The position numbers and the translations under genes were made by a program. From the NCBI RefSeq assembly GCF_040822065.1, contig NZ_CP162005.1, positions 1,612,001 through 1,676,000 on the forward strand: 64,000 nucleotides of DNA, read 5' to 3'. Under the pieces are notes generated by a model that worked only from the letters and a program-made list of their open reading frames with translations, was not told where the DNA came from and ran no database searches. Positions within the stretch are counted from its first letter, which is position 1; the number at the start of each line of letters is the position of its first letter. Below, in pieces: positions 59,121-64,000 of the stretch. This DNA is from Pedobacter sp. WC2423. GTDB lineage: Bacteria; Bacteroidota; Bacteroidia; Sphingobacteriales; Sphingobacteriaceae.

Positions 59121-59936
59121 ATGGAATATATAGCCAGGTATTTAACAAAAGAGATCAAGCTTTCCTCCTACGAAGACAAGCTTTTCAAATCAGACCTGAT
59201 GTTTGACGATCACATGCTCGTCTGGTTCATTTCCGGCGAAACAAAGATCATCCAGTGGGATACCACCTTTAATTTCAGAACCGGTGATATTTTTCTGATT
59301 CCAAGAAACCAGTTGGCAACGATTATCAACTATCCTAAAAATGGACTTCCCCATAAAACCGTTGTCATGCATTTATCGCTTGACCGATTGAGGAAGTTCT
59401 ATGAAAATATCGATGTCAGGAAGAGATCGCAACCCGATCAAAAAATCTACACGTTCAACGATCACCCCTTATTGGAAAGCTGCCTCGCTTCGCTTATCCC
59501 TTATTTTGATATAGACGGTCAGTTTCCCGAGGACCTCGCTTCATTAAAAATAACAGAGGCCATCAGTATATTGCGGATGATCGATCCGGGCGTCGACAGC
59601 GTTTTGGCCAATTTCGATCTGCCCGGTAAAATTGACCTGGTCAGTTTTATGCAGCGGAACTTTATGTTTAACATGTCACTGGAAAAATTGGGCTACCTCA
59701 CTGGCCGGAGTCTATCGACCTTTAACAGGGACTTCAAAAAACTATTTAATACCACACCACAGAAATGGCTTACAGACAAAAGATTGGAACTCGCGCATTA
59801 TCAGTTGCTCGAAAAAAGGAAAAAACCTAAAGAGGTTTATCTTGAAGTAGGCTTTGAAGATCTGTCCCACTTTTCGTTTTCTTTCAAAAAGAAATACGGC
59901 ATGTCTCCAGTTCAACTGATCTCGGCCTTACAATGA
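59121..59936 (+). CDS. AraC-family transcriptional regulator
   Basis: The start at 59121 (MEYIARYLTKEIKLSS) is preferred; a TTG at 59085 opens the frame but lies in the SDR relic. The protein has 271 residues, an N-terminal effector domain (DHMLVWFISGETKIIQWDTTFNFRTGDIFLIP) and a C-terminal AraC HTH pair (MSLEKLGYLTGRSLSTFNRDFKKLFNTTPQKWLTDK and PKEVYLEVGFEDLSHFSFSFKKKYGMSP). It is the probable regulator of the SDR gene at 57905. Confidence 0.9.
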   Translation: MEYIARYLTKEIKLSSYEDKLFKSDLMFDDHMLVWFISGETKIIQWDTTFNFRTGDIFLIPRNQLATIINYPKNGLPHKTVVMHLSLDRLRKFYENIDVRKRSQPDQKIYTFNDHPLLESCLASLIPYFDIDGQFPEDLASLKITEAISILRMIDPGVDSVLANFDLPGKIDLVSFMQRNFMFNMSLEKLGYLTGRSLSTFNRDFKKLFNTTPQKWLTDKRLELAHYQLLEKRKKPKEVYLEVGFEDLSHFSFSFKKKYGMSPVQLISALQ

Positions 59937-60033: not shown

Positions 60034-61323
60034 TCATCTGCCATCTTCAAATATTTTAGTAATACTTCTGCTAAACCGGGCGAGTAATGAACTCTCCCTG
60101 GTGATGATTTTTGCCTCTGCCAACATTCCACTTTTTAGCACAATTTTCCGGGAAGCATCTTTATTTTCAAAATCTTTAAAATCTACTTTCGCAATAAAAA
60201 CACTGTCTTTTAAAGCGACCTCTGATAGATAATTTACCTCGCCATGAATCATCCCAAATTCTTCAAAAGGATAACTCTGAAGTTTAATGAGCACTTTTTG
60301 TCCCAGTTTAATTTTACCCATGCTGTATTGTGGAATAGCTACTTCACCAAAAAATCTGGCGTTTACAGGATTTATGAAAAATAGTTCATCATTTACATTC
60401 ACATTCTGATTCTCCTGAATAATACCTGAGAAACCAACGATACCATCCACCGGCGCTGAAAGTACATAATGCATTAACCAGCTTTCTGTTTCAGTAATAA
60501 TCCCATTTAGCGCCTGAATAAAATTTAATCGCTGTTCCATAATGGTGTTATCGAGATCCAGAAGCTCCTTTTGTTTCGCCAGATAAGCGGTATTATTATT
60601 TGACAGGGAGGTCTCGTTCTGAAGAAGTGGATATTTACTGGACAGGTATTTGTTCTCCTGCTCTTTAAATTCATTATTGGAAATTACCCCTTTTTTCCTG
60701 AGGATAATATAGGCTTTATACTGTAACTCGGCATTTTCTATTTGTTTTTCCTGGATCTTCTTCTGCTGATTAATGTTATCCGTTAACTTTCTGAGTTCAT
60801 TTAAATCTTTCTCCAAAAAAATCTTCTGTTTGGAATAATGACCACCTTTTATTGCTTTATTAAATTGCAGATAAGATTGATAGAAAACTTCATATGCAGA
60901 TTGCAATTCGCCAAGATTAAGTTTATCAGATTCAAAGTTATTAACAAAAGTCGATGATGGGGCTATCGTGCGGAGCTGTTTGAGTTTCTTTAAAAGCCGG
61001 ATAACGTCAGTATGATCCGCTGTACTCTCCAGATAAGCAACAGGCTGTCCTTGCTTAACAAACTGATTTTCAGTCACCAGTATCCGAACCAGTTTACCTC
61101 TTTGTTTCGATAAAATCCGCTTGGGAGAATTTAAAGAATTTACTTTTAATGATGTATTGACTATATCAGGATACTTAATAAATGCAGACATCAACACAAT
61201 CCCTGCAATAACAGTAAAAATAATCATTGTTCCACTGCGTACTATCCAGGAAGGAACGGAGGTAATAATTTCCTCGATTTCATCACTGTTCTGCCTGTTA
61301 AATGGCGATAAATTCTCAGGCAT
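60034..61323 (-). CDS. HlyD-family membrane fusion protein of a peptide exporter
   Basis: A 429-residue protein with one N-terminal membrane segment (about residues 31-52, SGTMIIFTVIAGIVLMSAFI), a biotinyl-like strand pair (RILVTENQFVKQGQPVAYLES), a long alpha-helical hairpin with coiled coil (about residues 150-250) and a C-terminal beta barrel (APVDGIVGFSGIIQENQNVNVNDELFFINP). It links the inner-membrane exporter to an outer-membrane channel. It starts 2 bases after the ABC-transporter stop and belongs to the same transcript. No TolC homologue is visible here. Confidence 0.92.
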   Translation of the reverse strand: MPENLSPFNRQNSDEIEEIITSVPSWIVRSGTMIIFTVIAGIVLMSAFIKYPDIVNTSLKVNSLNSPKRILSKQRGKLVRILVTENQFVKQGQPVAYLESTADHTDVIRLLKKLKQLRTIAPSSTFVNNFESDKLNLGELQSAYEVFYQSYLQFNKAIKGGHYSKQKIFLEKDLNELRKLTDNINQQKKIQEKQIENAELQYKAYIILRKKGVISNNEFKEQENKYLSSKYPLLQNETSLSNNNTAYLAKQKELLDLDNTIMEQRLNFIQALNGIITETESWLMHYVLSAPVDGIVGFSGIIQENQNVNVNDELFFINPVNARFFGEVAIPQYSMGKIKLGQKVLIKLQSYPFEEFGMIHGEVNYLSEVALKDSVFIAKVDFKDFENKDASRKIVLKSGMLAEAKIITRESSLLARFSRSITKIFEDGR

Positions 61324-61325
61324 AC

Positions 61326-63518
61326 TTAAGCTCCTAATTCTAATTGATTCCTAACCAGTTTATGGTACTCTCCCTTCAGTGCTATCAATTCCTCATGAGA
61401 TCCATTTTCTATGATTACTCCTTTATCGAGTACGATGATATTACCAGCATTTCTAACTGTACTTAAGCGGTGCGCAACCACCACTACAGTCCTGCCTTTG
61501 AGAAACTCTTCGAGGTTATTCATAATAATAGACTCATTATTCGCATCCAATGCATTTGTAGCCTCATCGAAGAAAATATATTCCGGGTCTTTATATACTG
61601 CTCTGGCAATGAGTATCCGCTGTTTTTGTCCCTGGCTCAAGCCATTTCCTTCTGCCCCTATTTTTGTATGGATTCCAGCTGGAAGACTTTCTATGAGGTC
61701 AGAAATATTTGCAACTTTTACTGCATGAGACAGCTTTTCAAAAACCGGTGACTCATCTCCCACCGCAATGTTATTCGCAATAGTATCTGAAAAAATGTAA
61801 CCATCCTGCATCACTATGCCGCATTTACTTCTCCAGTATTGATGGCTAATCAGCTCTAAATTGCCAGAACCAATAGTAATTTCGCCTTTCTGGGGTTTAT
61901 AGAACCGAAGCAAAAGCTTCAGGATAGTTGTCTTTCCGCTACCACTCATTCCTACAATCGCGGTAGTTTTACCTTCAGGGATATGAAAGTTAATATTTTT
62001 CAGGACTGCATCGTTTCCGGCACCAGGATAAGTAAAAGACAATTGTGAAATGGAAATCCCCTTATCTTTAGGGAGCGCATGTATCACCTTTTTATCTGCC
62101 GGTTCTTCATCTTCCATCTTATGTATCTCATTTAGACGTTCCAAACTGATTTTGGCATCCTGAAGCTGTTGAACAAAACCTATCAATTGTTCAATAGGAC
62201 TATTGAGCTGGCCAATAATATATTGAATTGCCATCATAGTTCCTAATGTCTGATATCCCTCTATGACTGATTTCGCAACCAGAAAGGTAATAATGATATT
62301 TTTACCCTCATTGATAAAAAAAGCACCGGCCTGCTGATATTGTCCCAGAGAAAGACTCCTTACACTGAACCGAAAAATACCCGCCTGTAAACGTTCCCAT
62401 TCCCACCTTTTTAGTTTTTCAGAATTGTTCAGTTTTATTTCCTGCATACCTGCTATAAGCTGTACAACAACACTCTGGTTTTGTGCAGACAGATCAAATC
62501 TCTTAGTATCAAGCTGCCTTCTTTTTTTGAGAAAAACACAGATCCAAAGCACATAAAGTATACTGCTTATTAAAAAGACAATAAAAACTTCACTGTTAAA
62601 ATAAGCTAGTACAATTCCAAACACCAACAGGTTAAACAATGAAAAAATAGTATTCAAGGTTGATCCGGTAAGAAAATTTTCTATTCTTTTCTGATCATCC
62701 ATCCGCTGCATAATATCACCTGTCATCTTTGTATCAAAGAAACTCACTGGCAATTTCATTAGCTTTATCAGGAAATCGGTTAAAATAGAGATGTTTGTCC
62801 TCGTACTGATATGCAACAATATCCAGGCCCGGATAAAATCAACACTCAGCCGTCCTATAAATAACATGATTTGTGCAATCAGAATGACATAGACAAAATT
62901 AAGATTACGGGTATTAATCCCAATGTCCACCACAGATTGAGTTAGAAAAGGTATGATCAACTGAAGGATACTTCCAACACCAAGTCCAAGTAATAACTGA
63001 AAAATGAGTTTCTTGTATTTTCCTAAATAACCGAATAAATACGTCAGACTAATTGAGTCACTCTTTTCACCTTCTCTTTCATAGAAATCAGGTGTAGGTT
63101 CAAGAATTAAAGCAACTCCCTCAGTTTCATCTTTCCCAAAAATACTGACCCAATTGGTTAGAAATTCTGATTTATCATACGTGATCAGTCCCCTTGCCGG
63201 ATCTGCGACATAAAATTTATCCTTTTTGATTTTATAAACAACTACAAAGTGATTTTGCTGCCAGTGTACGATCACAGGCAGATCAATATTTTCCAGCTGC
63301 CTGCATGTAAGTGTAGCCCCCAGACTCCGAAAGCCTAATTTCTCCGCCGCCTCACTAATACCAAGCATAGACACTCCCTCTCTGTTGATCCCTGAAATAT
63401 CACGAAGCATCTGTAACCTGAAATTTTTCCCATAATGTTTAGCTACCATCCGCAGACACGTAGGTCCACAGTCCATCTGATCAGGTTGTGTATAAAGGGT
63501 AAATTTTCTTAAAGACAT
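61326..63518 (-). CDS. C39 peptidase-containing ABC transporter (bacteriocin exporter)
   Basis: A 730-residue protein with an N-terminal C39 cysteine peptidase: Cys17 in QMDCGPTC, His90 in HWQQNHFVVVYK and Asp106 in VADPARG form the triad. Then follow six membrane segments (about residues 160-440) and an ABC ATPase with Walker A GMSGSGKTT, signature LSQGQKQRI and Walker B YIFFDEATNALD. Such transporters cleave double-glycine leader peptides and export the rest. With HlyD directly behind and a dehydratase-like fragment in front it belongs to a RiPP (lanthipeptide-like) locus. The peptide precursor is not visible in the window. Confidence 0.93.
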   Translation of the reverse strand: MSLRKFTLYTQPDQMDCGPTCLRMVAKHYGKNFRLQMLRDISGINREGVSMLGISEAAEKLGFRSLGATLTCRQLENIDLPVIVHWQQNHFVVVYKIKKDKFYVADPARGLITYDKSEFLTNWVSIFGKDETEGVALILEPTPDFYEREGEKSDSISLTYLFGYLGKYKKLIFQLLLGLGVGSILQLIIPFLTQSVVDIGINTRNLNFVYVILIAQIMLFIGRLSVDFIRAWILLHISTRTNISILTDFLIKLMKLPVSFFDTKMTGDIMQRMDDQKRIENFLTGSTLNTIFSLFNLLVFGIVLAYFNSEVFIVFLISSILYVLWICVFLKKRRQLDTKRFDLSAQNQSVVVQLIAGMQEIKLNNSEKLKRWEWERLQAGIFRFSVRSLSLGQYQQAGAFFINEGKNIIITFLVAKSVIEGYQTLGTMMAIQYIIGQLNSPIEQLIGFVQQLQDAKISLERLNEIHKMEDEEPADKKVIHALPKDKGISISQLSFTYPGAGNDAVLKNINFHIPEGKTTAIVGMSGSGKTTILKLLLRFYKPQKGEITIGSGNLELISHQYWRSKCGIVMQDGYIFSDTIANNIAVGDESPVFEKLSHAVKVANISDLIESLPAGIHTKIGAEGNGLSQGQKQRILIARAVYKDPEYIFFDEATNALDANNESIIMNNLEEFLKGRTVVVVAHRLSTVRNAGNIIVLDKGVIIENGSHEELIALKGEYHKLVRNQLELGA

Positions 63519-63582
63519 TTAATTTTAAAAATCAAAACATTAAAAACAACTATGAACATTAGCAAAGTATTTATCAGTGGAA

Positions 63583-64000
63583 CTAGCTTTTCCTTTTGGT
63601 TTTTTCCCGGTAATATAAAATAAGAAGATCATAGGTGATACACTCCTGTACATTCTGTGATGAATCGTATATCCTGTTGCAAAACATATGAATGTAACTG
63701 TCAATATTGATTTTGCATTTCATTAAAGACCTGTTATCTAAGGCTGTAACCGAACGATGCCATTTCTTCATCTCAATGTTTAACTTTTTTAACTTTGGAT
63801 CACTTATCTCTCTTTTCAAATAGCAATCAATCTGGGCCGCATGCTGTTTATAAAATATAGAAGCACTTTTATTGTAGGATTTCCGGCTTTTGATTTTCAG
63901 TACATACAAATAGTAATCCCGGCAGGTCGTGAGCACTTTTACCCGTTCTTCTATACTCAACTTAAAAATATCAAAAAGGAAATCAATCCCCAGAACAGCA
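63583..64000 (-). CDS. 3' end of a lanthipeptide dehydratase C-terminal (SpaB_C) domain protein
   Basis: The frame runs without stop to the right edge, so the gene is cut; a TTG at 63960 is not its true start. The visible 138 residues read AVLGIDFLFDIFKLSIEERV and end SYIHMFCNRIYDSSQNVQEC then YDLLILYYR. This is the pattern of the thiopeptide/SpaB_C domain, which ends as a helical hairpin with S-x-x-H-M-x-x-N-R and Y-x-x-x-Y-Y-x. It is found as the C-terminal domain of LanB dehydratases or as a separate protein. It catalyses or assists dehydration (glutamate elimination) of Ser/Thr in RiPP precursors. 64 bases upstream of the exporter. Confidence 0.65.
   Translation of the reverse strand, partial: AVLGIDFLFDIFKLSIEERVKVLTTCRDYYLYVLKIKSRKSYNKSASIFYKQHAAQIDCYLKREISDPKLKKLNIEMKKWHRSVTALDNRSLMKCKINIDSYIHMFCNRIYDSSQNVQECITYDLLILYYREKTKRKS

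Follow-up and report, generated by a model that had tools for sequence, protein, structure and literature searches.

Class I lanthipeptide clusters of Bacteroidetes have been described with leaders of the form LxLxKx5L ending in GG and with C39 exporters; some of their LanC proteins resemble LanM domains, and some class I clusters carry, besides a full LanB, an additional elimination-domain protein, of a kind termed nearly exclusive to class I clusters and for which another modification was suggested (Walker et al. 2020, PMC7268733). Examples from Chryseobacterium and Runella have been expressed (PMC9993889). In Bacteroidales, genome mining has brought up clusters with S-glycosyltransferase (GlyS) domains and glycosyltransferases, with no LanB there and no isolated glycosylated peptide named (PMC10352776). 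Recognition elements fused to PF00535 glycosyltransferases, of a different peptide-binding fold and a comparable role, are also on record (PMC12710340). Class I products of the phylum are described in PMC9576775, PMC9993889, and PMC12328550, which also treat, in differing measure, glycocins or glycosylated lanthipeptides from other phyla (all these papers were accessible in part, and what we draw from them applies to those parts). Here we analyze a locus of Pedobacter sp. WC2423 at the right edge of a stretch of 64,000 nucleotides (hereafter the window, C1:1612001-1676000 in a single-contig genome with 5,978,383 bases, contig NZ_CP162005.1), in which a class I lanthipeptide cluster of this type holds a gene for a GT2 glycosyltransferase and one for a 292-amino-acid (aa) SpaB_C-like protein (hereafter the partner). 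The cluster type is already in print, and the pair of GT2 and partner is its unusual part. An earlier reading of the window from sequence only had called Bacteroidota class I lanthipeptides poorly known, a statement that is partly outdated given the two papers that treat them (PMC7268733, PMC9993889), and the pair, which lay outside the view of that reading, is what sets the cluster apart.

The likeness to the LxLxKx5L/GG/C39 clusters (PMC7268733) extends to LanB, LanC, an LxIxKx5I leader with GG, the C39 exporter, and a LanM-like LanC, whereas the GT2 and partner genes between LanC and the precursor LanA are a difference. Likewise, the standalone PF14028 proteins of the same survey have the SpaB_C fold, a separate gene, and a full LanB alongside, but the present family is tied to GT2, is without the invariant motifs, and has LanB in only 7 of 34 loci. 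Among solved folds, the thiopeptide pyridine synthases TbtD and PbtD come closest to the partner family (Z 17.7-18.8); of these, TbtD was, going by the title of the structure entry, solved with a leader-peptide fragment; identity to them is 10-13%, the partner is in contrast paired with a glycosyltransferase gene, and thiopeptide machinery was not searched for. Cacaoidin is a glycosylated peptide. It is termed a class V lanthipeptide in the literature accessible to us, and NAI-112 is treated under LanKC/LanL enzymes, with a glycosyltransferase, AplG, that acts on Trp (PMC12328550); both are sugar-bearing lanthipeptides, as predicted here, but of other classes, and the accessible text mentions no SpaB_C-like partner for either. 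Bacillota glycocins (PMC9576775) share a GG-leader Cys-rich peptide, a C39 exporter, and a glycosyltransferase with LanB-free relatives of the present locus (L073, L074), and differ from it in that the SpaB_C-like partner gene is kept, here together with LanB and LanC. The literature searched, for the most part as listings and with subscription papers mostly outside its reach, yielded no description of a GT2 and SpaB_C-like pair, and the accessible parts of PMC7268733, PMC10352776, PMC12710340, PMC9576775, PMC9993889, and PMC12328550 mention neither this pair nor, for Bacteroidota, any class I lanthipeptide that is glycosylated.

The cluster is a compact minus-strand run from window position 60034 to about 72449, with intergenic gaps of 2-97 bp, and most of its genes lie right of the window edge in adjoining DNA (L006, in which position p equals window position p+60000). 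The sequence-only reading had seen a gene cut by the edge, a C39 exporter, and an HlyD protein, had taken them for a peptide maturation and export system, and had expected the dehydratase part and the precursor past position 64000; all of this is borne out by the longer sequence. The outcome that was to refute that reading, a cut protein that does not match SpaB_C and neighboring DNA without dehydratase or precursor gene, is contradicted in both parts. The cut open reading frame (63583-63999, 138 aa), said to read like SpaB_C, matches PF14028 Lant_dehydr_C (E 5.6e-10, 40.2 bits, cut-off 24.4) and continues to a LanB of 1032 aa (L006:3583-6681 = window 63583-66681, the C-terminal end inside the window at 63583..64000), which carries the glutamylation (PF04738, E 5.2e-87) and elimination (PF14028, E 2.9e-47) domains, matches TIGR03891 (E 1.2e-43), as had been proposed for a check, and aligns in the PDB with MadB (E 1.4e-45) and NisB (E 1e-23). 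It has FIRY, ERYG, and HMxxNR, motifs common to 13 LanB C-termini compared from these genomes, which we take to be catalytic residues of the elimination domain. LanC (407 aa, L006:10960-12183, PF05147 E 6.9e-48) aligns with NisC of the PDB (E 4.4e-13) and has WCYGD and LCHG motifs (CYG, CHG) with C261, C310, and H311, presumably the zinc ligands; its best NCBIfam model is LanM, at a score far under the cut-off of that model. The precursor, expected to show GG before a Ser/Thr/Cys core, is LanA (60 aa, L006:8718-8900), with a leader of the form LxIxKx5I ending in GG (14.8 bits against NCBIfam NF038153 lant_leader_L1a, below the curated cut-off of 22) and a 32-residue core that contains 8 Ser/Thr and 5 Cys. 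In the exporter (730 aa, 61326..63518, PF03412 E 1.8e-35, PF00664, PF00005), which aligns over its length with the "ABC-type bacteriocin transporter" 4ry2 (E 2.5e-104), C17, H90, and D106 sit in the expected motifs and are presumably the three catalytic residues that had been claimed, and the HlyD-family membrane fusion protein (429 aa, 60034..61323, PF13437 E 5.1e-13; TIGR01843 E 1.1e-34, under its cut-off) lies exactly where it had been placed. Judged by its genes and motifs, the locus is almost certainly a complete class I lanthipeptide cluster, with a predicted lanthionine-bearing product.

Within this run, the GT2 gene (352 aa, L006:9878-10936; PF10111, PF00535, and PF02709 over their cut-offs) follows LanC after 23 bp, the partner gene (L006:8985-9863; PF14028 E 0.12 only, family profile E 1.1e-32) follows GT2 after 14 bp, and LanA follows the partner after 84 bp. 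A search of genome contigs with LanB alone found no relative. With the 292-aa protein as a single query sequence, matches came from 8 of the 145 genomes of the genus, a count that includes the own genome, and from 7 of 301 genomes drawn from the family, where the own genome and two repeats are counted. Among the 11 loci thus obtained outside the own genome, a GT2 relative stood beside the partner in 10, with an intervening open reading frame of 115 aa in L060; in the eleventh (L059, excluded from the partner profile) the match belonged to a LanB that is split, of which it is the elimination part and whose separate N-terminal protein was confirmed by Pfam. With profiles, the partner (E <=5.5e-14) and full-length GT2 (E <=2.7e-92) were recovered in the identical 13 of the 145 genomes of the genus, an outcome with a probability of 8.7e-19 under random draw (kinship of the genomes ignored). 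They are neighbors, with GT2 ahead of the partner, in ten of these genomes; in G127, GT2 lies 53 bp after a fused partner gene, and in G128 and G137 the two are separated by 3.8 and 4.9 kb. We set aside a chance neighborhood of GT2 and partner in view of this co-occurrence. Many weaker partner matches fall in LanB-like frames of 920-1016 aa. The fused gene of G127, a single case, encodes an 814-aa protein in which the partner domain (38.5 bits against PF14028, over the cut-off of 24.4) is N-terminal and is followed by Glyco_transf_11 and Glyco_transf_7C. A search with the GT2 alignment gave 59 named loci, extending about 9 kb either side (contig ends shorten some of the paired ones), with the partner adjacent in 34 (at a distance of -100 to 400 bp, and with two of the partners truncated at a contig end), at another place within the locus in 9, and not found in 16. 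It is very likely that GT2 and the partner function together. The module is rare, since in a draw of 395 genomes of the phylum GT2 and partner were found only in the own genome (cut-offs E 1e-10 and 1e-40). As a separate observation, the GT2 sequence of G021 (C1:4418833-4419312) is a remnant that contains three stop codons, and the partner was not found in that genome.

The partner of the cluster itself scores under the PF14028 cut-off (12.9 bits against 24.4), and 7 of 32 partner relatives match this family at E 0.01. The partner family was modelled on the protein of L082 (P. cryoconitis, from a locus with LanB and LanC; predicted local distance difference test, pLDDT, 86.8; predicted template modelling score, pTM, 0.87). 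Its 21 best Foldseek matches were TbtD, PbtD, aza-cyclase variants, TsrL, and LanB dehydratases, with an unrelated entry at rank 22 (E 0.11), and in VIA-align 12 entries of SpaB_C fold reached Z 15.8-18.8, the next entry 7.7. A comparison of the family profile with LanB C-termini was suggestive only (probability 44, E 2.3e-4; controls 0.4 and 0.07), and the assignment is carried by the fold comparison, by which the modelled partner family is of SpaB_C fold. At the position of the FIRY Arg of LanB in the profile alignment, none of 32 family members has Arg, a His seven residues further on is kept in 21 of 32, and HMxxNR or ERYG occur in none of the 32. The GT2 of the cluster carries DADN and YGFED (DxD-type and [W/Y]GxED motifs), and DADN and the Y, G, and D of YGFED are invariant across 42 relatives. 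Its model, also made on the L082 locus (pLDDT 93.5), is a GT-A enzyme (Z 16.4-19.0 over the best 50 rows), and the fold matches listed include heparosan synthase, chondroitin polymerase, TarS, and, among the best, polypeptide GalNAc-transferases; SunS and other known glycocin enzymes are absent among the matches listed, an absence that carries no weight, and no direct SunS-type comparison was made.

A C39 or HlyD gene is present in 26/34 paired loci and in 8/9 of those with the partner elsewhere in the locus, compared with 1/16 partnerless ones. Among paired loci, 27 have a candidate precursor, and in 18 of these (the LanA of the cluster included) GG is directly followed by Tyr, compared with 0/14 partnerless loci (Fisher p 2.9e-5, kinship ignored); eight loci were dropped from this count as the same records as named loci, the doubtful GG candidate of L076 was counted, and that of L058, with Gly as first residue, failed the count filter. 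LanB was found by profile in 7/34 paired named loci (L082, L085, L088, L095, L099, L100, and L106), some distance off and on the opposite strand in L106 and split in L085 (Pfam-confirmed), and in 4/13 pair loci of the genus (own, L053, L055, and L136; L053 and L082 are one record). LanC-like genes are present in 8/34 paired named loci and, by profile, in 3/13 loci of the genus, with a fourth (L136) by Pfam. LanB-free pair loci with GG-leader Cys-rich precursors include L073 (P. jejuensis), L074 (P. duraquae), L079, and L080, and further glycosyltransferase genes were confirmed in all four loci tested (L054, L056, L057, and L060).

Several loci with the pair hold other genes of note. Proteins of 520-546 aa with VKOR and a C39-like part, and with thioredoxin in five of the six tested, occur in L054 (3889-5454), L057, L060, L062, L063, and L114. 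In Pedobacter and Sphingobacterium, the pair has large (242-281 aa) Gly/Tyr-rich GG-leader proteins next to it (L104, L107, L108, L110, L113, L081, L091, and L112), and several of them share a recurrent NSWEELW...YVPP. L136 (8813-16834, genome G120) has GT2 and partner beside a LanB split into separate Lant_dehydr_N and Lant_dehydr_C genes, together with a LanC-like protein of 625 aa and a C39 exporter.

LanB enzymes use Glu-tRNA to glutamylate Ser and Thr of the precursor and then eliminate the glutamate, LanC closes the thioether rings with Cys, and C39 exporters cleave after GG and export together with HlyD; the SpaB_C fold is associated with elimination and with [4+2] chemistry. In this cluster, LanB would accordingly dehydrate Ser and Thr of LanA through glutamylation from Glu-tRNA and glutamate elimination, LanC would form the thioether rings of LanA with Cys, and the exporter would cleave behind GG, the product leaving with HlyD. 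We postulate that GT2 and the SpaB_C-like protein form a two-component module that would attach a sugar to the precursor, in which GT2 would be the catalyst and the other protein, instead of eliminating glutamate, would most likely hold leader or core for GT2. The sequences and models give the gene set, the motifs, the folds of the relatives, the pairing, and one fusion; that the two proteins glycosylate the peptide is, to us, a fairly probable step from there, in which we infer both the peptide as acceptor and the role of the partner. Given this reading of GT2 and partner as a peptide-glycosylation module, the product would probably be a glycosylated class I lanthipeptide.

The locus could also be an ordinary Bacteroidota class I lanthipeptide cluster to which GT2 and the 292-aa protein belong merely as passengers, or in which they make an unrelated glycan, since LanA, LanB, LanC, C39, and HlyD are enough for a lanthipeptide and the four other LanB loci of the genome are without the pair. 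However, the pair sits inside the run, between LanC and LanA with gaps of 14-84 bp, it recurs with LanB in other contexts, and its exporter association exceeds that of partnerless GT2 relatives, so that we regard this reading as unlikely. Alternatively, the partner could supply a further glutamate-elimination domain or could act on dehydrated residues in the manner of a pyridine synthase, which would suit TbtD and PbtD as its best fold matches and the other modification raised for such class I cluster proteins in the accessible part of PMC7268733. Yet the partner is tied to GT2 and once fused to glycosyltransferase domains with GT2 alongside, the FIRY Arg, HMxxNR, and ERYG are missing throughout the family, and, with LanB in 7/34 paired loci (about 9 kb each side), no dehydratase is seen to feed the partner in most of them. 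For the missing invariant motifs and the scarcity of LanB we set aside an extra LanB eliminase, and the wider proposal of an enzyme on dehydrated residues seems to us improbable, more so than the ordinary cluster.

A number of observations weigh against peptide glycosylation by GT2 and partner. The closest PDB sequences of GT2, chondroitin synthase 3 and beta-1,4-galactosyltransferase, have glycan acceptors, and most of its top fold matches act on glycans, so that fold and sequence alone do not indicate a peptide acceptor. The peptide-binding role of the partner is drawn from fold analogy, and both models are of relatives from the L082 locus and not of the proteins of the cluster itself. As to the pairing, 25 of the 59 GT2 loci are without an adjacent partner, one genome (G015) has a partner-like match (E 1.7e-11) with GT2 not found, and the 16 partnerless loci are an imperfect control, as they are mostly weaker GT2 matches. 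Finally, Tyr after GG fails in the other paired loci that have both LanB and a candidate precursor, where the residue is Glu (L082, L088) or, in L095, Asp and Gly.

A quick tree of GT2 (44 rows) requires five changes of co-location with LanB, at least three of them forced by starred branches, whereas shuffling the labels gives 6.7 on average (with five or fewer in 20 of 500 shuffles); L106 and L083 were unlabelled in these counts, and L095 and L136 are outside the tree. Each change may be either a gain or a loss. In the tree, the GT2 of the cluster falls closest to those of P. duraquae, P. jejuensis, and Parapedobacter, whose loci are LanB-free; no starred branch holds this group, and several rows are on long branches. 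We set aside a single joining of the pair and LanB on this tree. Given the five changes that this sequence tree needs, the pair and the lanthipeptide machinery probably joined or parted more than once. A broader reading, which we offer tentatively and as a whole, is that Bacteroidota may have put the SpaB_C fold to new use, as a constant companion to a peptide glycosyltransferase, that this two-component system may glycosylate GG-leader peptides of Cys-rich (beside VKOR-thioredoxin proteins), Gly/Tyr-rich, and lanthipeptide type, and that gain or loss of its link with the class I machinery may have occurred three times or more, with glycosylated class I lanthipeptides as the result. In a bolder version, the partner would be an enzyme that eliminates the sugar attached by GT2 as another route to dehydro-residues, which is unlikely.

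In the direction of transcription, the run opens with an HTH_11 protein (75 aa, L006:12222-12449, PF08279 at 26.1 bits against a cut-off of 25), passes through LanC, GT2, the partner, and LanA to a terminator-like hairpin by LanA (L006:8709-8685), and continues after the hairpin with a CarboxypepD_reg-like protein (287 aa, L006:7757-8620, PF13715 E 3.9e-9), a protein of 326 aa (L006:6725-7705), LanB, the C39 exporter, and HlyD. The 326-aa protein matches no family at cut-off and has no match among the 144 other genomes of the genus. Around the precursor, terminator-like matches (three) are above shuffles (mean 0.5), and promoter-like ones (three, shuffle mean 2.5) are not in excess. The left neighbor of the cluster is a plus-strand gene that ends at 59936.

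The genome has five LanB loci, that of the cluster and four others. A second lanthipeptide cluster (L009:4432-12711, C1 about 5587431-5595710) holds five similar tandem precursors, LanC, LanB, a C39 exporter, and an HlyD that is short at 172 aa. Another LanB locus has three precursors and two LanC-like genes (L071:4736-13418), one has two precursors (L070:6308-11247), and one has LanB and a possible GG precursor, with a LanC search without match (L069:9213-12618). Pairs of C39 exporter and HlyD, with no LanB seen nearby, are present in L008 (10125-13646) and L010 (8475-12973), the latter adjoining a GG-leader protein of 264 aa.

The accessible account of elimination-domain proteins that occur as extras in lanthipeptide clusters (PMC7268733) leaves their function unsettled. 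For the partner subfamily, a testable function is offered by its pairing with GT2 and by the case in which it is fused to glycosyltransferase domains. Should the proposal prove true, a GT2 gene next to a SpaB_C-like gene would serve as a marker for glycosylated ribosomal peptides in Bacteroidota, and a sugar would be predicted on a class I lanthipeptide.

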